From: Planctomycetaceae bacterium
GTDB taxonomy: Bacteria; Planctomycetota; Phycisphaerae; Tepidisphaerales; Tepidisphaeraceae
Direction: 5' to 3'
DNA: 64,000 bases
NCBI GenBank assembly: GCA_027487775.1
Contig: JAIYCY010000023.1
Location: forward strand, 184,049 to 248,048
The notes beneath the pieces were generated by a model. The model ran no database searches, was not told where the DNA came from, and saw nothing but the letters and a program-made list of their open reading frames with translations. A program made the translations under genes and the position numbers. Positions 26,422 through 64,000 of this stretch are shown in pieces; the first letter of the stretch is position 1; each line of letters opens with the position of its first letter.

Positions 26422-29400
26422 ATGGCTCATAGCGGACATCAACCCTCTCTCGTTCCGATCGGGCAGCTTGCGGGCAAGCCTGCGATTCCGCTATCGCGTG
26501 CGGTGATGGTTGCGGGGAATTCGCCTGCGGTGCGTATTCAGCTTCGTTCTGAGAGCGTGAGTCACAACCACACGCTGCTCGTGCGTACGAGTCGTGGGAC
26601 GTATTTCCGTGATCTGGTGAGTCGGACGCACACGATTCTGAACGGGCGTGTTGCGACCGAGTCGATGTTGCGATCGGGCGACACGCTGACGATCGGCTCG
26701 TTCGTGTTTCATTTCGTTGATCCGACCCCGCCCGAGCGAGCGGGCGAGCCTGACGAGGCGATTGGCGTGTCGCTGGAGGTGACCGGTAGCGATATTCCGC
26801 TTCCGATCGAATCCAAGACGATCCTGATCGGGCGGCGCAAGGGGTGTGATGTACGGCTGACGGAGGACTCGGTATCGACCGCGCACGCGGTGATTTTCGA
26901 CATCGACAGCAAGCTGTACGTGCGTGATCTGGCGAGCCGAACGGGGACGTTTGTCAACGGCGAGAAGGTCCATCAGATTGGTTTGCAACTCGGGGATGAG
27001 ATTCGCATCGGTGAGACGTCGATCCGTCTGGTGCCCGCGCGCCCGACGATGATCGAAACGCCCGAGCCGATGAAGCCTGTTGAAGCGACGACGATATCCA
27101 AATCCGCGAAGCCGATCGAAGCATTGAAGCCGATCGAGGATGCGAAGCCGATCGAAGCATTGAAGCCGATCGAGGGTGCGAAGGCGATCGAGGGTGGAAA
27201 GCTGGTCGGATTGAAAGACGCTGAGCGGCCGGAGTCTGAGAAGGGGATGGCGATAGATCGGCGGGTGGTGATCGGCACGCTGCCGTTGGTTGCGTTGGCG
27301 GACGATGCGGATGTTGGGTTGGTGAAGCCTGCGGGGCCGTTGGACGCGGAGTCGTTGTCGCGCGCCGAGCCGTTGGCTGTGGCAGCGCCGGAAGAGATCG
27401 TAAGGGCGGAAGAGATCGTAAGGGCGGAAGAGACCGTAAGGGCGGAAGAGATCGCGACGCCGGATGCGATCGCTGGGGCGGATGATCTTGCGGTGCCGTT
27501 GGTCGAGACTGTTGCGTTCGGTTCGACGAAGATTGACGAACCGATGAAGGCGCCCTCGGCGATTGATGCGCCCTCGGCGATTGATGCGCCCTCGGCGATT
27601 GATGCGCCCTCGGCGAGTAACGAGCCGTTGGCGATTGACGAGCCATTGGCGGACGACGAGCCATTGGCGGACGACGAGCCATTGGCGGACGAGGTGGTGA
27701 TCCCGCTTGCCCGCCGAAGTTACGACACGCTGGACAGCGAGGAAGATCGGTCGAGCGAGCCGGGTGAGGCTGACGTTTCTCTGGTGAGTATCGCACCAGT
27801 CGACGATGTGCTGGTTGATCATGTCCAGGCCGAAGAAGTGCTCGTTGACGAAGTGCTGGTTGGCGGGGCACCGGTCGAAGTCGCGCCGGTTGAAGAGGCA
27901 CCGGTCGAAGAGGCGCTTGTTGATGACGTTTCGGTGGGTGAAGCGTCGGTTGCGATAGCGCAACCGGCGGACCACACCGCATCGGCAGAGTCGGTGATGT
28001 CGTTGCCCGAGAGCGCGGTGGCGGACGAGCTGAAGCCGATCGATGCGGTCACTTCTGACGTCGGGCAGGCATCCGAGTCTTTATCGACGAAGGATGTTGC
28101 TCCGGCTGTGGAGCGTCAGCCGACTTCGGAGCTTGCGCCGACTTCGGAGCTTGCGCCGACTTCGGGGCTTGCACCGACTTCGGGGCTTGCACCGACTTCG
28201 GGGCTTGCGCCGATGGCGGATTTGTTGCGGAGTTTGGACGCGGCGATCAATCGGCCGATGCCGGAGGATTTGCGTGAGTTGTTGGATCGCGCGCCGATGC
28301 GAGTCGATCCGCTGCCCGAGACGCTGGCGGTGGACGATCCGTTGGCGGGTGTTCCGCAGCCCATCAGCGAGATTGCCCGCCGCGCGCGAGCGATCGCCGA
28401 GATTCTTGCCGCCAACGAGCCCGCCGAGGAAGAGGCCGAGGCCGAGGCCCGGAAGTTACTCGCCGACGCCGATCCGATTTTTGATGTCGCGGAGGATTCC
28501 GATCGCGCGGCCTTAACGGTCACCACTCAAGACGATGAAGTCGTGGATGCCGGGGAGATCGTTGATTCCGAAGAGGTCGATCGGGCGGATCCAGCGGACG
28601 ATGTTGTCGGGTCCCATGATGTGATCGCTAAGGCTGACGCACAGGTCATCGATGACGCAGATGAGCGCATGGTCCCGGCGGATCATCTTGCGGGAACGAG
28701 CACGCCGATCGACCAAGCGGCGCGCGATCCGATTGATGCCTCGCAAGCGATCGATCAGGCTGCGTCTGCCGAACCGACATTCGTCGCAGAGACGCTCGCG
28801 AAGAGTCAACTCGTCGAGCCGCCGACGCTTGATCAACGGCATCAGATCGTCGAACTGCTCCGTGGTTCCGACTTGTCTGCACCTTCGGGCGTTGAAGGCT
28901 TTGAAGACGACGCGCTGGGCCTGGAACCGAGCGTCGCACTGGGCAGCGAGCCGATCGATGTTTCGAGCGATCGACCGACGGATGTGTCGAGTCCGGCGGC
29001 GATTGACGAGCCGATTGCTTCTGTGTTTGCTCCGTCTGATGTCGCGGTTCCGGCTGCTCGGGTCGAGCGTCCGGTTACTGCGAGTGATGGTCCGATTGAA
29101 TTCGCGCCGGTGCCTGTTGATGAGCTGCGTTTCGACGTTCCGCCACTCGAACTCCCACCGCTCGACGTTCCGCCGCTTGATCTGGCGACGCCCGAGTTTA
29201 CGGTCGCCGCGCTCTCCGCCGACACCTCGATCGACATCGCGCCCCCCGCGGTAACACAAGAACCGGGATCGGCCAAGCGTGAACCGGAGTTGACCACGCA
29301 AGAGCCGGAAGTCTCCACGCGAGAGCCGGAAGTCGCCTCGCGTGAACCGGAGTTGACCACGCAAGAGCCGGTCGCTCCCGCGCCTGTCGGACGTTTGCCC

Positions 29401-32400
29401 GCCGATGAAATAGTAGACGAAGCGGTCTCCGTTGATGAAGTGCCCGCCGTCGAATGGCCTCTCGTCGAGTCGCTTGTCGTTGAATCGCCAGCAGTGGCTG
29501 CGCCGATCGAATCTGTGCGGATCGAATCCGAAACGGCCCACCCGGCACTGATCGACGCGACGTCCCATGAGGCGTTGAGCATCGAAGAGACCGTCATCGA
29601 AGAAACACGCGTCGAAGTAGCCCCGATCGATGAGTTGATCACAGGCGAGTCGATTGCCGATGAGTCGATTGCAAGAGAGTCGAACGAAGCCGAGTCGAAT
29701 GAAGATGATTCGAATGAAGCCGAGTTGAATGAATCTGGTGCGAGTGGGGCGGAATTTGATGCTTCGGTTTCGCACGATGCCGTGACTGAGGCGTCTGCGT
29801 TCGTATCCGAAGCACCGACGGTCGTATCCGAAGCACCAGCGGTCATTTCCGAAGGGTTGGCGGTTGTCGATGCGGAGACGTTGGAGGGGGTCGAAGATCC
29901 TTCCGCCTTCGAGGCGGTCGATGTCGTGTCGATCACCGACGATTCGGCCGGATCGGAAATCGCATCGCTGACGGAGATCACATCGGTCGATGACACGGCA
30001 TGGATGACCGAAGCGACATTGATCGACGATGCATCATTGATCGCCGATGCGTCATCGTTCACCGATGCGTCATCGTTCACCGATGAAGGCGAGCCGATCG
30101 ATACCGGTGCGGGCTTGCCAGCTTCGATGGCAACCGAGGATTCGGGCGATTCCTTGTCGGGAGCAGCGGGCGTGGCGTCGGACGAATCGGCAGGGCGTGA
30201 GCCGACGATCGTGCCGATGGATCAGCCGAAGGGGTTGGTGGATCATCCCGCCCCGATCGAGCCGTTGAGTGCGCCGCGTCGCGCGGAGGATGAGTGGAAG
30301 CTCGCCGACTGGGACGATATTCCGGCGGGTTCTCTGACCGATTCCGTGCTTCCGCCGGCGGTCGGTGGTGTAGCGTTCATGAACCTTGGCGGGATCGGTT
30401 GGGTTGGCGACGAGGCGACAGACGAGTACGAAGCCGTCCCCGGCAGTGCTCAGTCGATCACTCCGCCCGCACCGGGTCGGCCGATTGTTGCGCCAGGCAC
30501 CTCCGCACCGCGCAGCAGTCCGGGTGCAGATTCGCATCGAGGCGATGTTCCGCTCGAGAATCGTTCGAACAATCCTTTTGCGGATCGTCCGCTTCCCATG
30601 CGGCCCGGCTCTCGGCGACGTCGTCGCCCGGTGGGTCCTACGCCGTTTGCCAGCGAGGCAGCGCCGCTGCCAGAGCCGACGTCCTCCGAACCCGCATCGC
30701 CTGAGCCGGCGGTGGACGAGCCCGTCGTCGCGCAGTCGACGTCTGCCGATATCGCGTCGATTGAGACAGAATCCGTTGCGGAGGGGCTGACTGAGTCGCA
30801 GGCCATCGCAGCGTTGAGCGAGCCGTCTGCGTTTTTCGATACGCCTGCTGACGCGTCCTCGGATCTTGACTCGACATCGATTGCATCTGGCGACGTTGAT
30901 CGAGTGGCCGTTGAAGAGGTTGGTTCGGCTGGAAATGTGTCATCGGTCGAAGACGCGAAGAGGGATCGTGGCGATGCCGCGCCGACTGCAGTTGACGCGT
31001 CGACCGCGGCTGACGCGCCGACTGCAGTTGACGCGCCAGCAGCGCCAGTCGTGTCGGAGGCACCTACAGCACCGGTGACGCCGGCCGCGCCGTTGGCGGG
31101 TCTGGCGTCGGTCACACCTCCACCGTTCAAGCCGCTTCGTCGGCCGAAGCGTCGTCGCACACCTCCTCTGGCGGGCCTGCTCGGCACGCCGGTCGACGCT
31201 TCGGTGTCAGATGCGGCTGACACCGGTCCCGCGCCTTCGAGCAGTGCTTCATCAGAGAGGTCGCAGGAGATCGACCATGCAGGTGCTGCGTCGGGCGATT
31301 CGTCGGTGATCGATGAAGCACGCGGCGAGGCGCCTCGTCGGACTGATGCGTTGGTTGATGAGGCTTCGGTTGACCGTGATGGACCCGATGCGTCGGATCA
31401 GCCCGGCGCGCCGGTCGCTCCGCCGCGTCGGATCAAGCCTGGGTCCGCGGACGTCTTTAGTCACTCGCCGGTCGCGGGTCTTGACGAGATGCTGGCTCGC
31501 ATGGGTCGTTCCGCGTCCGCCCGCACGGGCTCGGTCGCAGGCGCGCCAGCTGACCAGCACGACGTCCCCGCCGATCTGGATGCCGCGCGTATCGAAGATG
31601 CTGTTGAGAACGCTTCGCGTTCCGTCCGGCGTCGTCCTGGCCGTCCGACCAATGGTCAAGTCGATCGTCAGATCGATCCTCCAATCGATCGCCCGGCCGA
31701 AGACGCAAAAGACGCTGATCCGATTGCTGATGCCTCGTCAGAGCGTCTCGGCGTAGGAGCCGATCGGTCAGGCACAGTCGAGCCATTCGCCAGCGTGACG
31801 GACGCCGAAGGGCTGACCGAAGTCGATCCTGCGATCGATCCGGAGCGTGGTGGAGTCTCAGATGCTGAAGCGTATCTGGACGGGGAAGCAAGTGCCATTG
31901 AGAGATCGATCGAGGATGACAACCAGACAGCAGGCGACGAGCCCGGCCGTGCGGGTCGATTGATTCCGCCGATCGGATTCCCCGCTGCTTCGTCGTCTGC
32001 TGACCACCTGCCGCTGATCGCTTCGACGCATCTGAGCGAAGTTTCGCCGTCCGATTTTTTGCCGCTCACCGAACCGACGCAGGCCGACGCCACAGCGCAA
32101 GGCGAAGCAGCGGCGCGATCCTACACGCCTGCACCGGCCGCCACAGCGTCGCACGCGACCGTCTCGACCGAGCCAGTCGATTCGACCGAGCCAGTCGATT
32201 CGCCCAAGCCGGTCGGTTCGACCCAGCCGATCGCAGCGCCCGGCAAGTCGTTGCCAGCCGATGTGAGCCTTACGCCGCGTCGTCGTCGATCGTTGAGGCG
32301 GATTCCGTTTGTGGTGGTGGGGATGTTGATTCTGATGGGCGCAGCCGTGACGGGTGTTCAAAAGCTTCTCCCGGTGCCCGCGATCGTGCGTGCGGAGCTT

Positions 32401-34299
32401 GCGTACAGCCGATACAACGCGGTTCCTTCGGAGGTGAGGCGCAGCTTTGACAACGATCAGCGCACGCGGCTGCGTGCCAGTCGCGAGCCGGCGGCTGCGC
32501 TGCTTCCTGAGGGCGTGGATCGCGGGTTTCTGGCATCTGCGGGCACACTTGATCTGCTGATCAACAATCTGAATGTCGTCAAGGGCAAGGCGGACACGCT
32601 GGAGCTTGAGCTGCAGACGGATCTGCGTCGGCTTGACGACGATCGTGTGCGAGTTGAATCGCTGATGAAGGCGCTTGGCGAGATGAATCAGGATCTGGTG
32701 CGTCAGCGGATTCAGGTGACGGATCGCCTTGCGGTGATTGAGCATCAGCTGACGTCGAACGTGCGTCGTCGTGATGATTTGACCGAGCGTGAGTCGCAAT
32801 TGTTGTCAGTGTTTGAAACCAGGCCCAGCGCGATCGAAATGAAGAGCGCTGAGACGCAGCGTGTCGAGGCGCAGAGCCGACTGGATCTTCTGAGGCAGGC
32901 TTCGGGCGATCTGGCGGGTGAGATCGCGCGGGTCGAGGGCCTGATCCGGTCCGCGGAGGCTGAAGAACCGAAGCCGACCGGTCCGGACACGGTGTTGGTG
33001 GAGCTGAATGCCCAACGGGATCGCGAGCAGCGTGCGCTCGCGGACCTCGACGCGCCAGGCGGGGTGACCGCCAGCGCCCGCACGCGGCTCGAGTCGGCAC
33101 TCGATGCCTTTGCGGAAGAGGTGAAGTCCGCCCGCAGTAATTTGGATGATGCGCCGATGGTGCTGGGGTATGTGGAGTCAGCGCAGAAGCTGCAAAAGAG
33201 CCTTGCTGAGCGTACGGATACGATGGTGCGTCGTCAGGAGCAGATGGTGACGCGACTGGCGGAGTTTCGTCGTCAATTGGCTGATCTGACGGACGATCAG
33301 CAGCAGAGTCGCGAGGCGTCTGATACGCAGTTGACCGAGTTGCAGGAACAGCTCGGGATCCAGCAGCGTCGGCTGAACGTGGCGGTGCAGGCGGGGGCGG
33401 TGGAGGAGATCGAAACGATTCAGGCGGGCGTTCGTATGCTTGAGAACGCGGTGGCCGCGCGACGTGAACGTTTGGCGGATCCGCGTGTGGTGGCGCTGAG
33501 GCAGAAGTTGGAAGAGATGATCGCGACGACGGAGCGTGAGTTTGCGACCGATCGTATCGATAATGATCGTGTGCTCGCGGAGATGAGCGAGTCATTTCTG
33601 CGTCAACAGCCCGCCGTCGAGCAGCTTCCCGAAGACCAGCAGAAGCTCACGGAGTCCCTGGCCAATCGGCTTGCCGCCGTCACGCTCGCGCGTGAGGCGT
33701 ACAACCGGAGTCTGGAAGAGGCAACGTCGGATCGCGAGGGTCAGCGTAGGCAGATCCAGGGGCGGCTCGAGCAACTTGCCCGCGCGATCGAACGTCGCAC
33801 GGCGGAGCTGGATGCGATTGCGGCGGATCGTGCGAGCGCCGAGGCGCGGCTCGCATCGCTCCGGGGTGAACTGATCGATTTGGGCACGCGTCGTGCGTCG
33901 GTGGACAAGCAGGCCGTCGAAGCTCGTGCGGTGCTGCTGGCCTCAGAACAAAAGTTGGCGGACTTCGTGCGACGGCGTGACACTGCCGACGCCGCAGCGT
34001 CCGAGATCGACAACCTGCGTCCGCAGCGTGTGGCGGCGGTCACTGCGATCACGCAGCTTGAGAACGAACGCATCCAGCTTCGTGGACAACTCGACACGCT
34101 GATCTCGCCCGCCCAGCAACAGCCCTACACCGTTTCTGCGACGCACGCCCCGGACCGCCGCAACACCGCAAGCGCGCTGGCGGCCGGTCTGATCGGAATC
34201 ATCGGCGTGGGCGTTCTGTTTCTGATGATCGGAAAGACGCCCGAAGAAACGTATTCCACTCCCGCCCGCGCGCGTCTGGGCACGCCCGTTCGCGCTTAA
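26422..34299 (+). CDS. Giant FHA-domain membrane protein with low-complexity and coiled-coil regions
   Basis: This protein has 2625 residues. Two FHA phosphothreonine-binding domains lie at about 22-100 ('YFRDLVSRTHTILNGR') and 118-205 ('ILIGRRKGCDVRL' and 'LASRTGTFVNGEKV'). Residues about 210-1945 are acidic, Glu/Ala/Val/Pro-rich low complexity with in-frame repeats. A basic stretch and a membrane helix follow at about 1955-1978 ('FVVVGMLILMGAAVTGV'), then a coiled coil of nearly 600 residues, a second hydrophobic helix near 2585-2605 ('GLIGIIGVGVLFLMIG') and a short tail. The FHA end would be cytoplasmic and the coiled coil periplasmic. No family for the whole protein is known to me; a phosphorylation-dependent envelope scaffold is a guess. 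Confidence 0.9.
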   Translation: MAHSGHQPSLVPIGQLAGKPAIPLSRAVMVAGNSPAVRIQLRSESVSHNHTLLVRTSRGTYFRDLVSRTHTILNGRVATESMLRSGDTLTIGSFVFHFVDPTPPERAGEPDEAIGVSLEVTGSDIPLPIESKTILIGRRKGCDVRLTEDSVSTAHAVIFDIDSKLYVRDLASRTGTFVNGEKVHQIGLQLGDEIRIGETSIRLVPARPTMIETPEPMKPVEATTISKSAKPIEALKPIEDAKPIEALKPIEGAKAIEGGKLVGLKDAERPESEKGMAIDRRVVIGTLPLVALADDADVGLVKPAGPLDAESLSRAEPLAVAAPEEIVRAEEIVRAEETVRAEEIATPDAIAGADDLAVPLVETVAFGSTKIDEPMKAPSAIDAPSAIDAPSAIDAPSASNEPLAIDEPLADDEPLADDEPLADEVVIPLARRSYDTLDSEEDRSSEPGEADVSLVSIAPVDDVLVDHVQAEEVLVDEVLVGGAPVEVAPVEEAPVEEALVDDVSVGEASVAIAQPADHTASAESVMSLPESAVADELKPIDAVTSDVGQASESLSTKDVAPAVERQPTSELAPTSELAPTSGLAPTSGLAPTSGLAPMADLLRSLDAAINRPMPEDLRELLDRAPMRVDPLPETLAVDDPLAGVPQPISEIARRARAIAEILAANEPAEEEAEAEARKLLADADPIFDVAEDSDRAALTVTTQDDEVVDAGEIVDSEEVDRADPADDVVGSHDVIAKADAQVIDDADERMVPADHLAGTSTPIDQAARDPIDASQAIDQAASAEPTFVAETLAKSQLVEPPTLDQRHQIVELLRGSDLSAPSGVEGFEDDALGLEPSVALGSEPIDVSSDRPTDVSSPAAIDEPIASVFAPSDVAVPAARVERPVTASDGPIEFAPVPVDELRFDVPPLELPPLDVPPLDLATPEFTVAALSADTSIDIAPPAVTQEPGSAKREPELTTQEPEVSTREPEVASREPELTTQEPVAPAPVGRLPADEIVDEAVSVDEVPAVEWPLVESLVVESPAVAAPIESVRIESETAHPALIDATSHEALSIEETVIEETRVEVAPIDELITGESIADESIARESNEAESNEDDSNEAELNESGASGAEFDASVSHDAVTEASAFVSEAPTVVSEAPAVISEGLAVVDAETLEGVEDPSAFEAVDVVSITDDSAGSEIASLTEITSVDDTAWMTEATLIDDASLIADASSFTDASSFTDEGEPIDTGAGLPASMATEDSGDSLSGAAGVASDESAGREPTIVPMDQPKGLVDHPAPIEPLSAPRRAEDEWKLADWDDIPAGSLTDSVLPPAVGGVAFMNLGGIGWVGDEATDEYEAVPGSAQSITPPAPGRPIVAPGTSAPRSSPGADSHRGDVPLENRSNNPFADRPLPMRPGSRRRRRPVGPTPFASEAAPLPEPTSSEPASPEPAVDEPVVAQSTSADIASIETESVAEGLTESQAIAALSEPSAFFDTPADASSDLDSTSIASGDVDRVAVEEVGSAGNVSSVEDAKRDRGDAAPTAVDASTAADAPTAVDAPAAPVVSEAPTAPVTPAAPLAGLASVTPPPFKPLRRPKRRRTPPLAGLLGTPVDASVSDAADTGPAPSSSASSERSQEIDHAGAASGDSSVIDEARGEAPRRTDALVDEASVDRDGPDASDQPGAPVAPPRRIKPGSADVFSHSPVAGLDEMLARMGRSASARTGSVAGAPADQHDVPADLDAARIEDAVENASRSVRRRPGRPTNGQVDRQIDPPIDRPAEDAKDADPIADASSERLGVGADRSGTVEPFASVTDAEGLTEVDPAIDPERGGVSDAEAYLDGEASAIERSIEDDNQTAGDEPGRAGRLIPPIGFPAASSSADHLPLIASTHLSEVSPSDFLPLTEPTQADATAQGEAAARSYTPAPAATASHATVSTEPVDSTEPVDSPKPVGSTQPIAAPGKSLPADVSLTPRRRRSLRRIPFVVVGMLILMGAAVTGVQKLLPVPAIVRAELAYSRYNAVPSEVRRSFDNDQRTRLRASREPAAALLPEGVDRGFLASAGTLDLLINNLNVVKGKADTLELELQTDLRRLDDDRVRVESLMKALGEMNQDLVRQRIQVTDRLAVIEHQLTSNVRRRDDLTERESQLLSVFETRPSAIEMKSAETQRVEAQSRLDLLRQASGDLAGEIARVEGLIRSAEAEEPKPTGPDTVLVELNAQRDREQRALADLDAPGGVTASARTRLESALDAFAEEVKSARSNLDDAPMVLGYVESAQKLQKSLAERTDTMVRRQEQMVTRLAEFRRQLADLTDDQQQSREASDTQLTELQEQLGIQQRRLNVAVQAGAVEEIETIQAGVRMLENAVAARRERLADPRVVALRQKLEEMIATTEREFATDRIDNDRVLAEMSESFLRQQPAVEQLPEDQQKLTESLANRLAAVTLAREAYNRSLEEATSDREGQRRQIQGRLEQLARAIERRTAELDAIAADRASAEARLASLRGELIDLGTRRASVDKQAVEARAVLLASEQKLADFVRRRDTADAAASEIDNLRPQRVAAVTAITQLENERIQLRGQLDTLISPAQQQPYTVSATHAPDRRNTASALAAGLIGIIGVGVLFLMIGKTPEETYSTPARARLGTPVRA
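27391..28215 (+). repeat. Blocks of 18-bp in-frame tandem repeats inside the FHA gene
   Basis: Four repeat blocks are visible: GAAGAGATCGTAAGGGCG units from 27391, GCGCCCTCGGCGATTGAT units from 27550, GAGCCATTGGCGGACGAC-type units to about 27690, and GCTTGCGCCGACTTCGGG-type units at about 28120-28215. All have an 18-bp period, giving six-residue repeats such as (P-T-S-G-L-A) and (P-S-A-I-D-A). Confidence 0.9.
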
Positions 34300-60069: not shown

Positions 60070-60143
60070 TGGGCGATACAGGATTCGAACCTGTGACCCC
60101 ACGCGTGTGATGCGTGTGCTCTAGCCAACTGAGCTAATCGCCC
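60070..60143 (-). tRNA. tRNA-Val (anticodon CAC)
   Basis: On the minus strand, acceptor GGGCGAT (plus 60137-60143) pairs with ATCGCCC (60071-60077). D arm GCTC/GAGC, anticodon arm CACGC-ATCACAC-GCGTG and T arm ACAGG-TTCGAAT-CCTGT are intact. The loop places CAC at 34-36, reading GUG valine codons. CCA is not encoded. Its 5' end points toward the Rhs array that begins about 90 bases to the right. Confidence 0.97.
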
Positions 60144-60214: not shown

Positions 60215-61114
60215 GTGCCCGCCGCGCGCAGCCACCTGCAATACGCCGGCGAGTTCCGGACGCACAGTTTGGGTGCGTATGACCTGCGAGCGCGAGACTA
60301 CGACGCGGGCACAGGAAGATTCCGCAGCCAAGACCCCACCATCTTCGGCCCCGGCGACACGACGGACGCCAACCTATTCCTCTACGGCTCGGCGAACCCG
60401 GTGTACTACACGGATCCGACGGGGTTGGCCGTGTACGTGGCCACGATCAAGGCGATGGCAATCAAATTGACATTGGGTTCGACAGCAAGTTCCGTGGCCT
60501 TCAATGCATTTTCTAGCGCGATGATGATCGCTAGTGGTGCGTCATGGCAGGCCGGACTTCGGGCATTTGCAACAGATATGGCCTTGGATGGTGTCACTGG
60601 TGGAATTGGTAGCAAGTTAAAGTGGATCGCGAGGGCGGTCCCGGAGACACTGAAGCTTCGGCGCGCCGGGGAAGCGATCAAGCGTGCGAAGAATTCCGTG
60701 TGGAACATCCGCGACGCTGGACAACGGGGCCGAGCGATCGAAAAGAAGATTCTTAACGACGCTGGAGTCCAAGAGCGTGTGCTGCATCCGGATTTTCCGG
60801 TGCTGGACCATCTCGACCCTGTGACCGGAACCGGCCTCTCGATCAAGAGCTATGACTTGTTTTCTGGTTATAGTAAGAGCGGTGCGATACGCGACGCTCT
60901 GAGGTCCGACGTACGTAGACTGTCTCAAGCGGTATATCCCAAGTCTTATGCCTATTCCACGGTTGGCAAGGGTGAGGTACGGCGTCGGACACTTGTTGCG
61001 GCATTCGAAGATGGAGCAATGACCAGCGCTCAGTTGGATGATATTGCAAAGTTCGCAGACGAATTGAGGCGTGATTTTCCGGGAGTTCACCTTGTTGTAC
61101 AGTTCATCAAATGA
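60215..61114 (+). CDS. Rhs-core fragment fused to nuclease-like toxin tip (cassette 1)
   Basis: This frame has 299 codons. Residues 5-70 are the end of an Rhs core ('AGEFRTHSLGAYDLRARDYD', 'TGRFRSQDPTIFGPGD' and 'NPVYYTDPTG'). The remainder is a distinct tip: a hydrophobic pretoxin part, then E176 in R-A-I-E-K-K, D198 in 'FPVLDHLDPVTG' and S-I-K-S-Y-D at 209-214. This E...D...S-x-K order resembles PD-(D/E)XK/CdiA-CT-type tRNase toxins. The only start in frame is GTG 60215 in non-homologous DNA without a ribosome binding site, so it is probably a silent tip rather than an expressed gene. Core identity is certain; the toxin type is inferred. Confidence 0.75.
   Translation: MPAARSHLQYAGEFRTHSLGAYDLRARDYDAGTGRFRSQDPTIFGPGDTTDANLFLYGSANPVYYTDPTGLAVYVATIKAMAIKLTLGSTASSVAFNAFSSAMMIASGASWQAGLRAFATDMALDGVTGGIGSKLKWIARAVPETLKLRRAGEAIKRAKNSVWNIRDAGQRGRAIEKKILNDAGVQERVLHPDFPVLDHLDPVTGTGLSIKSYDLFSGYSKSGAIRDALRSDVRRLSQAVYPKSYAYSTVGKGEVRRRTLVAAFEDGAMTSAQLDDIAKFADELRRDFPGVHLVVQFIK
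60231..60424 (+). repeat. Rhs core copy 1 (partial)
   Basis: This segment matches 62117-62310 with constant offset 1886 and scattered substitutions but no indels. Homology begins abruptly at about 60231 and ends after the D-P-T-G codons. Its left flank is unrelated to the other copies. Confidence 0.95.
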
Positions 61115-61202
61115 GTCAGATAGACCAGCACGATTGAAGTCAATTGCATCAACATTGCTTTGGTGGAAGCGAACGGAGATCGTCGTATTTCGTGAGGCAA
61201 TC

Positions 61203-61574
61203 ATGATCGGCGGGTGTACGAATCTCGTGCAGGTTCATGGTCGTTACGCATGGGATGATCCCTCTGCACTCGCTCGCGCAGTTTATAGCGCAATGGATCT
61301 TCACTTCGGTCAGGTTGCTGCCGATGAGGTAAAGCGGATGACCAGAGAGGCAGTGAAGACACTCGGGCACGAAGATTGGGTCAAGGCTCAGCGAGGCTGG
61401 ATTGGCGGCACTCTCGTGCAAGTCGCAGGCGGCAGCAACTGGCGATTGGACATCATCGGACCGATGACTCGCAATCAACATAAGCGATTGCCGAATCCTT
61501 CAGTTTATCTGAGGCAACCGACCTTTGAGGAGCGTGGCATTGCAATGATTCGTGCGATGAAACGATGGGTATAG
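61203..61574 (+). CDS. Putative immunity protein for cassette 1 tip
   Basis: This 123-residue protein begins 'MIGGCTNLVQVHGRYAWDDP' and has the size of an immunity protein. GAGG lies 6 bases before the ATG at 61203; the frame is open upstream to a GTG at 61071, which would overlap the toxin. I recognise no family. The assignment comes from position: it directly follows the toxin tip and precedes the next Rhs-core fragment, as in Rhs tip-immunity modules. Confidence 0.55.
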   Translation: MIGGCTNLVQVHGRYAWDDPSALARAVYSAMDLHFGQVAADEVKRMTREAVKTLGHEDWVKAQRGWIGGTLVQVAGGSNWRLDIIGPMTRNQHKRLPNPSVYLRQPTFEERGIAMIRAMKRWV

Positions 61575-61626
61575 AGACCCCGGTACGATCACGTTCCAAA
61601 CATTTACGTTTGATGGGGATGGCTCG

Positions 61627-63012
61627 ATGGAATCAACCTCCGGCAAGCTCAATCCAAGCTTCATCACCGATCCGACCTCAACTCCGAGCGATGCTGGGGA
61701 TGAAGTGTTTGCGTATGACGCGGAGGGGCGAAGGTTTGAGACGCGGGATGCTGACGAGACGCGTCGATCTGTCATCGATCATCGCAACCCGACGGGGTAT
61801 TCGCAGAAGCTGGATGAACTCAAGCGTGATGCGGACGCGGTGGGAACCCCGGCCGAGGGGTGGGAGATCGAGCTTGGCTACACGCTGGGCCTGGATGTGA
61901 TCGCCCAGACGCGCGTCGAGGGGAGCCATCTGCCGGAGTTGTTCCTGTACGACACGCACGGCAGCGTTCGCGGGCTGTTGGATTTGCAGGGCAAGACGCG
62001 TGAGACGTACGACTATGATGCGTTCGGCGTGGCGGGGCAGTTTTACACGCTGATGGTCAACCCGACGCAGGCGTCCGACCGCTCGCCGATGCCGCTTACG
62101 CAGGCGGACGCGAAGAGCCACCTGCAATACGCCGGTGAGTTCCGCACGCACAGCCTCGGTGCGTATGACCTGCGCGCCCGCGACTACGACGCGGGCACGG
62201 GCCGATTCCGCAGCCAAGACCCCACGATCTTCGGCCCCGGCGACACGACCGACGCCAACCTCTTCCTCTACGGCTCGGCGAATCCGGTGTACTACACGGA
62301 TCCGACTGGGTGGTTTGTAAATAATGCGGAACTATTGACTGTCTCAAAGATTCAGTTTGCGGCTCTGGCCATCATCGGGCTTAGCGTGCTTGGAATCATG
62401 GCGATGGGCGGTGCCATCATCAACGCAGGGATGAGAGATGCTGGCTCGGATCAACAGACATTTGCATCGCCCAAGCATGTAGCTAAGGCAATGGGTGTTC
62501 CGACAGTGTCGCTGCAGGAAGAAAGTATCAAGACAGTTCACAAGGGAAATGACGATGACATGTACTTTGTGCATGGCACTTCGACAGATAGATGGCGCGG
62601 CGGAGTTATCAACTACTTTTCAGCTACGCGTAAATTGGATTTTGGAGTTGGCTTTTATCAGTTCTTGGCTGATTCCGATGGTCTATCGGCAGCAGCCAAC
62701 TTCGCCCGCCGAAATGTTAGGGGTGATGGGCATCCGTTCTTAATCATCACGTCAATTAGCCGTCGGCGATTTAATCAGATCGAGAAGAAGCAAGTGTCAG
62801 CATCATCAGCGAGCGACCTGGCAATAGTGAATCAGTATCGGAGTTCTGGCATCGGTCCGTGGGACGGCATTCCCATTGTATATGGAGCAACCTACAAGCG
62901 CGACGGTCTCGGCGGTTGGATACCGCATGTTCAAGGTACGCTTCCTGATCAGTACCGTTTCAATTGGTTGACTGGTGGCGATCTGAAGCCATTCGCCATC
63001 ATTCCGTTATAG
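61627..63012 (+). CDS. Rhs-core fragment fused to ADP-ribosyltransferase-like tip (cassette 2)
   Basis: This frame has 461 codons. Residues 1-228 are Rhs core with YD-repeat features ('DEVFAYDAEGRRFETRD', 'LFLYDTHGSVRGLLDLQG', 'TRETYDYDAFG' and 'NPVYYTDPTG'). A hydrophobic segment lies at about 243-266. The tip at about 310-461 has 'MYFVHGTSTDRWRGG' (H316-G-T), 'RKLDFGVGFYQFLADS' and 'LPDQYRFNWL' (Q-x-x-F), the order seen in DUF3990-type ADP-ribosyltransferases. Rhs-like codons continue upstream of the ATG ('TITFQTFTFDGDGS') to just after the preceding stop at 61574, so the core is cut without a natural start. Toxin class is inferred. Confidence 0.8.
   Translation: MESTSGKLNPSFITDPTSTPSDAGDEVFAYDAEGRRFETRDADETRRSVIDHRNPTGYSQKLDELKRDADAVGTPAEGWEIELGYTLGLDVIAQTRVEGSHLPELFLYDTHGSVRGLLDLQGKTRETYDYDAFGVAGQFYTLMVNPTQASDRSPMPLTQADAKSHLQYAGEFRTHSLGAYDLRARDYDAGTGRFRSQDPTIFGPGDTTDANLFLYGSANPVYYTDPTGWFVNNAELLTVSKIQFAALAIIGLSVLGIMAMGGAIINAGMRDAGSDQQTFASPKHVAKAMGVPTVSLQEESIKTVHKGNDDDMYFVHGTSTDRWRGGVINYFSATRKLDFGVGFYQFLADSDGLSAAANFARRNVRGDGHPFLIITSISRRRFNQIEKKQVSASSASDLAIVNQYRSSGIGPWDGIPIVYGATYKRDGLGGWIPHVQGTLPDQYRFNWLTGGDLKPFAIIPL
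61659..62310 (+). repeat. Rhs core copy 2
   Basis: Positions 61659-62132 match 63527-64000 (offset 1868) and 62117-62310 match 60231-60424 (offset 1886), in both cases colinear without indels. Confidence 0.95.
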
Positions 63013-63061
63013 CAATCGACAACCGCATTCGTAGAAGCAATTGACATTTAAGGATCGGTCG

Positions 63062-63445
63062 ATGGGTCGAATACGTGACTTTCTGCTGCCTTCAGATATG
63101 GAACAATATGTAGTCATCGCGCGCGAATTGTTCGGATGGAGTCGTGAGCAAGTTGTCGAATGGCTTGATTGTGAGAATGAGCAGTTGTACGCCATTGAGT
63201 TCGTAGGAACTCAGGAGTTGGAATTGGAGTTTACAGTCATGCTGTTGAACTCCAGGCTTGTGTCGTTCCGAGCGAATTGGCGGCAAGTGTCTGGATACAC
63301 AATGGTTGACTGCGAGGACATGCTGTCTTTACTGATTGGAATGGGTCTTCGTAGAGAGTTGACATGGGGCGAGGTTCGAGCAGAAATTGCGAAGCTTGAG
63401 GAGGCAATGAGATTCTTTATCATCCCGCTCATTCGAGACTGCTGA
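63062..63445 (+). CDS. Putative immunity protein for cassette 2 tip
   Basis: This 127-residue protein begins 'MGRIRDFLLPSDMEQYVVIA' and is acidic and compact, as many immunity proteins are. AAGGAT lies about 8 bases before the ATG at 63062; a TTG at 63041 is also in frame. No family is recognised. It starts 49 bases after the stop of the ART-like tip and is followed by the third Rhs-core fragment, so its role is inferred from position. Confidence 0.55.
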   Translation: MGRIRDFLLPSDMEQYVVIARELFGWSREQVVEWLDCENEQLYAIEFVGTQELELEFTVMLLNSRLVSFRANWRQVSGYTMVDCEDMLSLLIGMGLRRELTWGEVRAEIAKLEEAMRFFIIPLIRDC

Positions 63446-63497
63446 ATGCGGATTCTTGTAACGGTGTTCGCCTAGGATTCGTTTTTAACGAACTGTG

Positions 63498-64000
63498 ATG
63501 GACTCGCTCAGCAGGCCCGATCCAAACTTCATCACCGATCCGACGTCGCTGCCAGGCGATGCGGGGGATGAAGTGTTTGCTTACGACGCCGAGGGTCGCA
63601 GATTCGAGACGCGGGATGCGGAGGGAACTCGGCGGGCGGTCATCGATCATCGCAACCCGACCGGCTATTCGCAGAAGCTGGACGAGCTGAAGCGTGATGC
63701 GGATGCGGTGGGAACCCCGGCCGAGGGGTGGGAGATCGATCGTTCGTACACGCTGGGCCTGGATGTGATCGCGCAGGCACGCGTCGAGGGGAGCCATCTG
63801 CCGGAGTTGTTCCTTTATGACACGCACGGCAGCGTTCGCGGGCTGTTGGATTTGCAAGGCAAGACGCGCGAGACGTACGACTATGACGCGTTCGGCGTGG
63901 CGGGGCAGTTTTACACGCTGATGGTCAACCCGACGCAGGCGTCCGACCGCTCGCCGATGCCGCTCACGCAGGCGGACGCGAAGAGCCATCTGCAATACGC
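63498..64000 (+). CDS. Rhs-core fragment (cassette 3), truncated by window edge
   Basis: The frame is open from ATG 63498 to the window end, 167 codons, encoding the same core as cassette 2 ('PNFITDPTSLPGDAGDEVFA', 'LFLYDTHGSVRGLLDLQG' and 'ETYDYDAFGVAGQFYTL'). Its tip lies beyond the window. The core starts abruptly after a 50-base non-homologous spacer following the second putative immunity gene. Whether this third copy is another displaced tip cannot be seen. Confidence 0.85.
   Translation, partial: MDSLSRPDPNFITDPTSLPGDAGDEVFAYDAEGRRFETRDAEGTRRAVIDHRNPTGYSQKLDELKRDADAVGTPAEGWEIDRSYTLGLDVIAQARVEGSHLPELFLYDTHGSVRGLLDLQGKTRETYDYDAFGVAGQFYTLMVNPTQASDRSPMPLTQADAKSHLQY
63527..64000 (+). repeat. 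Rhs core copy 3 (runs off the window)
   Basis: Matches 61659-62132 at constant offset 1868 with scattered substitutions and no indels over 474 bp. Confidence 0.95.

Follow-up and report, generated by a model that had tools for sequence, protein, structure and literature searches.

How is a string of displaced Rhs toxin tips kept in a genome in which no full-length rhs gene is found? The question is raised by a 64,000-nucleotide (nt) stretch of DNA, hereafter the window, from the assembly of a Planctomycetaceae bacterium (GCA_027487775.1, contig JAIYCY010000023.1, positions 184,049 to 248,048), the last part of which (60223-64000) holds three copies of the Rhs core, head to tail and in one orientation. 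The array is best read as a set of orphan Rhs tip-immunity modules, a known kind of element, in a parentless variant: copies of a short segment of the Rhs core precede predicted toxin tips that are unrelated to one another, and each complete unit is then followed by a candidate immunity gene. Our preferred explanation, which we regard as about evenly poised between right and wrong, is that the units would be translated from their own ATG as predicted toxin-immunity pairs and would have been acquired and rearranged as recombination took place in the core that they share. Below, C numbers denote contigs of this genome (G000), C11 being the contig that carries the window, and other G numbers denote further genomes.

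Layout of the array and starts of its units

A first-pass annotation, made from the sequence, had described three core copies of the same orientation that are colinear without indels, and this description held up. Copies 1 and 2, at an offset of 1886 nt, are 91.8% identical across 196 nt, and copies 2 and 3, at an offset of 1868 nt, are 90.0% identical across 490 nt, both without gaps, with 22-30% identity at four nearby offsets tried as a control on the second pair. When the window's core copies were aligned separately on their own stretches, identities were 86% and 91%. Units 1 and 2 (Table 1) match Rhs_assc_core (TIGR03696) above the cut-off, and the D-P-x-G boundary can be read directly in both. 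Beyond it, tips 1 and 2 are unrelated (best BLASTP E value 7.2), and tip 2 is also unlike the tip of the second unit of an array on C4; the earlier statement that the tips differ completely therefore stands for the first two and had no third tip to rest on, as copy 3 ends at 64000, the end of C11, before its boundary is reached.

Each of the first two tips precedes a small open reading frame (ORF), as the annotation had said. These two candidate immunity genes are mutually unrelated and gave no Pfam match above the cut-off; the second is 28% identical to a small ORF just before the core remnant near the end of C22. Tip 1 resembles CDI_toxin_EC869 (PF21111) at E 0.017 and tip 2 resembles DUF3990 at E 0.23, both below the cut-off, and in a single comparison tip 2 was 32% identical over 166 columns (E 2e-14) to the tip of an Rhs protein from a Pirellulaceae metagenome-assembled genome (MAG). 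The tips are predicted to be toxic and the small ORFs to protect against them. Cores measured 60-68% G+C and tips with their following ORFs 46-57% (window, 60%), and the lower G+C of the latter fits imported tips. Outside this genome, no homologue of unit 2 above 40% identity was found among 7998 scored candidates, and a search with the tip part of unit 1 found only itself; three distant loci were matched in contigs of other genomes, two from Listeria and one from a Bizionia MAG. When solved structures were searched by sequence, tip 2 had no useful match, and the 279 matches of tip 1 up to E 5 were judged to reflect chance or composition despite E values down to 0.00011, the best 60 of the 279 being repeat proteins and maltose-binding-protein fusions. 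The predicted structure of unit 2 had a mean predicted local distance difference test score of 35.5, and this model is unusable.

The 5' ends are visible in seven internal units (units 2 and 3 of the window, two on C4, and one each on C2, C22, and C28). Six of the seven have ATGGA(A/G)TCAAC(A/C)TCC in common, together with 13 to 41 preceding nucleotides as judged by eye, and the seventh, unit 3 of the window, has its own ATG, with ATGGACTC at that place. The mean similarity of the units to one another drops from 0.74 in the 15 nt just upstream of the ATG to 0.56 at -30 to -15 and then to 0.40 at -45 to -30, compared with 0.39 in a control further upstream, such that background is reached 30-45 nt upstream of the ATG. 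Each unit could now start at its own ATG, and this start is probably used. Copies 1 and 2 had been said to lack a natural start at the core boundary, which has to be amended: copy 2 has the ATG at 61627, and copy 1 is what remains, from about 60223 on, of a core truncated at its 5' end. Both array-edge units, unit 1 of the window and the first on C4, are truncated further in than the shared ATG. In two units the frame extends upstream into a YD-like segment, which indicates that the units descend from a longer gene. One fixed cassette boundary was considered and rejected, as the 5' ends spread over about 41 nt in this genome (by eye) and over hundreds in G077, a genome of the same class.

The array had also been described as standing free next to a tRNA. 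A tRNA-Val gene does lie at its flank (Table 1), yet this neighborhood is not a rule, since a scan of the stretches at five other array edges (C4, C2, C22, C28, and C34) found no tRNA. Integration directed by the tRNA was rejected on the same ground and because the array lies on the wrong side of the gene. Elsewhere in the window, positions 26422-34299 hold a frame of 2625 amino acids (aa) with FHA domain matches, the only other Pfam match there being an overlapping Yop-YscD_cpl (1e-5).

Table 1. Features of the array and its flank, in window coordinates
Feature	Position	Strand	Remarks
tRNA-Val (cac), flank of the array	60070..60143	-	array starts on the 5' side of the tRNA
Unit 1, 299-aa frame: 5'-truncated Rhs core plus tip 1	60215..61114	+	Rhs_assc_core, 51.5 bits
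Unit 1, core homology (5'-truncated remnant)	about 60223-60427	+	sequence comparison
Unit 1, tip 1	60428-61114	+	weak resemblance to the CDI_toxin_EC869 nuclease family
Candidate immunity gene 1, longest frame 167 aa	61071..61574	+	no Pfam match
Unit 2, core copy, ATG at 61627, ending at the D-P-T-G boundary	61612..62313	+	
Unit 2, tip (232 aa)	62314..63012	+	very weak DUF3990 match
Candidate immunity gene 2 (134 aa)	63041..63445	+	ORF list; similarity to an ORF on C22
Unit 3, core copy with its own ATG-led frame, incomplete at the contig end	63498..64000	+	

Core copies elsewhere in the genome and the search for a parent gene

The first-pass annotation had further suggested that a main rhs gene elsewhere could draw on the array as a silent store of tips, and had proposed a genome search for a full-length rhs gene with a matching core. 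The assembly comprises 34 contigs and 4.1 Mb and is 94.71% complete. Such a main gene found no support, and against the refuting condition given in the annotation the outcome is divided: matching cores do occur elsewhere, but none was seen in a full-length gene. The protein of unit 2 matches 13 places on seven contigs (C22 contributes two rows from a single broken copy, and the match on C19, at 48%, is less closely related), each of them either part of an array or a copy interrupted where its contig stops. None of the 13 is more than 5.2 kb from the end of its contig, which indicates that the repeats break the assembly. TIGR03696 was found at 10 places, the longest frames being 504 and 483 aa, TEN_YD-shell (PF25023) had no match in the genome, and PF05593 had two, in frames of 227 and 342 aa. 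YD_repeat_2x, at E values up to 1, gave six weak places, two in units of the window and four in frames of 170-354 aa, with unit 2 itself (483 aa) as the longest frame matched. Signs of the Rhs upstream repeats were hence confined to array units and short frames. We also searched with the 1899-aa C-terminal piece of a 5027-aa Rhs frame from G019, whose core is 50% identical to that of this genome; its eight matches all fell at known core copies, and a protein search with the G019 core yielded giant Rhs proteins, the best 120 of 556 reaching as much as 49% identity to that core. Searches with the unit 2 protein, the profiles, and the G019 piece thus detected no full-length rhs gene in the 94.71%-complete assembly, in line with the annotation's view of displaced tip modules standing free, and neither the ORFs from 56000 on nor the genome-wide Rhs_assc_core places put an rhs gene to the left of the array in the window, as it had also said. 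Nor do the units look like full-length secreted Rhs proteins, as there is no YD-shell match and the five units tested have no hydrophobic N-terminus.

The ends of the contigs help to place the window's last unit. The arrays of C11 and C4 run off their contig ends, and C2 and an end of C34 begin inside this core; the last 5 bases of C11 are the first 5 of C2 and of the reverse-complemented C34 end, and the first 133 bases of C2 are 99% identical to the first 133 of the reversed C34. From these overlaps, unit 3 of the window probably continues either on C2 (tip, ORF, and truncated core) or on C34 (truncated core). The sister array at C4:1-5125 (minus strand) consists of a truncated core, a tip, ORFs, a second core with a tip carrying a HELSH motif, which we take to be metallopeptidase-like, an ORF that matches FGE-sulfatase, and a third core interrupted by a stop codon. 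At the end of C19 lies the more distant core, which is incomplete because the contig stops there; it is accompanied by a tip and by a 299-aa ORF with a weak resemblance to Imm49 (E 0.0049, below the cut-off). The end of C22 and the start of C28, both with a core remnant, have a 32-bp stretch in common (91%), in a region that contains GGGGCTGTCCCC, and this stretch is perhaps another dispersed repeat. A second family of Rhs core fragments, of the R-Q-D-P-L-G type, is found at C3:20074, C25:8627, and C31:183344-184851, with a repeat part at C16:290, and no frame over 317 aa is present at its core matches.

For the 15 pairs of cores that could be compared over 61 codons or more, the ratio of nonsynonymous to synonymous substitution rates (dN/dS) ranged from 0.04 to 0.34, and for four shorter pairs (37-38 codons) from 0.08 to 0.48. 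The two longest alignments with unit 2 gave dN/dS values of 0.14-0.18 and a dS of about 0.4, from which it follows that the copies are not fresh duplicates. Some of them are mosaic, in keeping with the earlier proposal of recombination through the shared core: in the core of unit 1, 11 of 12 informative sites match the second C4 copy before a switch occurs (p 0.0015), and in a second triplet the pattern was reached in 0 of 2000 shuffles. These results come from 24 tests in eight triplets with trimmed ends; the untrimmed test was inflated by misaligned ends, and trimming was chosen after that first result. Cores on different contigs appear, from these tracts, to have exchanged sequence, which points to recombination through the core.

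Arrays in related genomes and the weighing of explanations

Among the genomes of the same class that we searched, 120 of 148 have Rhs_assc_core. In 20 assemblies (10 + 10), hand-picked for few contigs among the genomes with an Rhs match, 147 matches were found, 30 in frames of at least 1000 aa and 117 in shorter frames. Such a long frame was lacking in 18 of the 25 clusters of two or more units and in seven of the nine with three or more, and such counts set only a ceiling on the number of parentless arrays, given that the C3 array of G149, without a 1000-aa frame, has a short signal-like head; the 1000-aa frame was rejected as a test for a parent for this reason. That head (G149:C3:173756) measures 614 aa from stop to stop, or about 606 aa from its Met, has a Cys-rich stretch, and is much shorter than the class's giant Rhs frames. 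Heads were checked in three clusters without a long frame, and those of G149 C7 and of a ten-unit array in G077 were not signal-like. The hydrophobicity peak in the first 60 aa was 2.04-2.71 in three array heads (G149 C3, G089, and G072), compared with at most 1.17 in five units of this genome and at most 0.67 in three units of G077; the head of G149 C7 showed no signal-like peak.

G077, assembled as one contig of 3.19 Mb, offers a firm case of an array without a long gene of its core family. Its ten units extend over 18.5 kb (C1:1841585-1860119), and the core pairs that were found are 86-98% identical. The array contains no long frame, and none of the three units tested has a signal-like N-terminus. 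A single Rhs frame of this genome exceeds 1000 aa; it measures 1813 aa, its core shares 46% identity with that of the array, and it has a counterpart in the congener G082. Upstream of dnaG, G082 has no array, in a comparison that is one-sided because the G077 flank aligns there on its dnaG side alone. A 2.06-kb stretch of the G077 array is present twice at 97.3% identity, which is a segmental duplication. Other genomes do carry long genes by their orphan cores: G089 has two ten-unit arrays headed by frames of 1150 and 1972 aa, the latter with a signal-like N-terminus, and orphan cores lie behind long rhs frames in G021 and G046 as well as in G089 and G072. The 18 core matches of G072 (one contig, 4.25 Mb) are scattered round the chromosome as singles and pairs, one in a frame above 1000 aa and the rest in frames of 104-489 aa.

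We prefer to read the units as parentless toxin-immunity pairs because intracellular toxin-antitoxin upkeep best explains their persistence without a delivery gene; dependence on the antidote, rather than use by a delivery gene, would likely retain them. In its favor we count the unrelated tips behind shared cores, the position of all 13 matches near contig ends, the failure to find a full-length gene, the ATG-led 5' ends and the low N-terminal hydrophobicity of the units, the dN/dS values, the mosaic cores, the G+C contrast, the G077 array, and the published case of Salmonella. Several points weigh against this reading. The assembly is incomplete and breaks at these very repeats, with the core copies on C2, C34, and C19 cut at contig ends, so that a parent gene could be missing from it. 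The low dN/dS may reflect selection in ancestors of the modules, and short pairs reach 0.48, while three of the eight triplets show no mosaic signal below p 0.1. The shared ATG could be a by-product of where the breakpoints fell, given that two units continue in frame upstream, and ATG-led ends are not general, as those of the G077 units are found anywhere between about 218 and 665 nt above the boundary. The G149 C3 array, without a 1000-aa frame, has a signal-like head of about 606 aa, and the stop codon in the third C4 core copy, the broken C22 copy, and the truncated array edges fit decay.

The main rival, on account of an assembly that is incomplete exactly at these repeats, is the silent store, in which a full-length rhs gene of this core, missing from the assembly, takes up tips through the core as in Salmonella, where the relevant parts of PMC3967940 describe such a store. 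The long rhs frames that are followed by orphan cores in G021, G046, G089, and G072 lend it weight, yet no upstream part of an Rhs gene was found in the 4.1-Mb assembly, the contig ends that fall in the core appear to balance without a parent (two run out, C11 and C4, and two begin inside, C2 and C34), and the one-contig G077 array has no long gene of its core family, which leaves us considering this store unlikely. We give a clearly smaller chance to the idea that the units are decaying remnants, displaced tips left without present function after loss of their parent gene. Truncation at the edges, the damaged copies on C4 and C22, and the R-Q-D-P-L-G fragments on C3, C25, C31, and C16 (repeat part) without long frames would all suit decay, but the frames of unit 2, the second C4 unit, and the C2 unit are intact through core and tip, and dN/dS between copies is well below 1. 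Very improbable, finally, is a bank of immunity genes held against the Rhs toxins of neighbors with the tips as passengers, as proposed for orphan cdi modules and with an immunity protein made in Escherichia coli EC93 (both PMC3150448), since intact tip frames are retained and polyimmunity loci are defined, in the section of PMC3482391 that treats them, as being without intervening toxin cassettes, unlike here, where a tip lies between the two candidate immunity genes.

Beyond parentless pairs at this one locus, ATG-led mini-Rhs arrays might be autonomous islands driven by addiction, which either survive their delivery gene or arose without one and which spread from site to site within a genome as they recombine through the core as a handle, a second Rhs lifestyle beside that of delivered weapons; we offer this as a tentative idea that is on the whole doubtful. 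Orphan Rhs tips are explained, in the passages cited here, mainly as spares of a neighboring main gene. With the ten-unit array of G077 and the arrays of this genome, it becomes testable whether modules can persist and multiply without a delivery gene, and under what selection. As such arrays break assemblies, they and their heads are easily missed in draft genomes.

Comparison with known systems

Among the matches listed in our search of the open-access literature, no description of parentless Rhs arrays was found. The closest known systems are the orphan rhs-CT/rhsI modules of Enterobacteriaceae, which, in the portions of PMC2935791 and PMC3967940 used here, likewise consist of a core fragment, a boundary motif, an unrelated tip, and a small following gene, occur in strings of units, and have the core as a recombination substrate. 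Those strings are described as sitting downstream of an intact rhs gene, whereas no intact gene was found here, and their cores within a locus as identical, whereas the two longest unit 2 comparisons here gave about 0.4 synonymous substitutions per site. The orphan fragments are also usually without start signals (PMC3967940 and PMC3150448), whereas the internal units here share an ATG. Growth of the strings has been proposed, in the discussion we draw on from PMC2935791, to proceed by recombination with circular intermediates downstream of the intact gene.

Orphan cdiA-CT/cdiI arrays, with eleven pairs in E. coli EC869, are similar in placing tip-immunity pairs behind a conserved handle, but follow cdiBAI genes and belong to another delivery family (PMC3150448). 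For polymorphic toxin loci with cassette arrays, a median of three cassettes per active toxin is given in the relevant text of PMC3482391, which is similar to the 117:30 ratio of short to long frames in our 20 assemblies. Within the class studied here, the ten-unit array of G077 and the arrays of G089 and G149 C3 are alike in having short Rhs units head to tail; the unit starts of G077 vary, and the G089 (1972-aa head) and G149 C3 arrays have signal-like heads.

The mechanism that we favor may have its nearest analogue in Salmonella, where orphan Rhs tips are reported to be expressed internally as type II toxin-antitoxin modules and selfish upkeep is discussed (PMC7043789). Gene order is the one feature of a type II toxin-antitoxin system that fits here, with a predicted toxin followed by a candidate antidote, and the two cases differ in that the Salmonella main rhs gene is next door; what they would have in common is an intracellular use of the tips without delivery.

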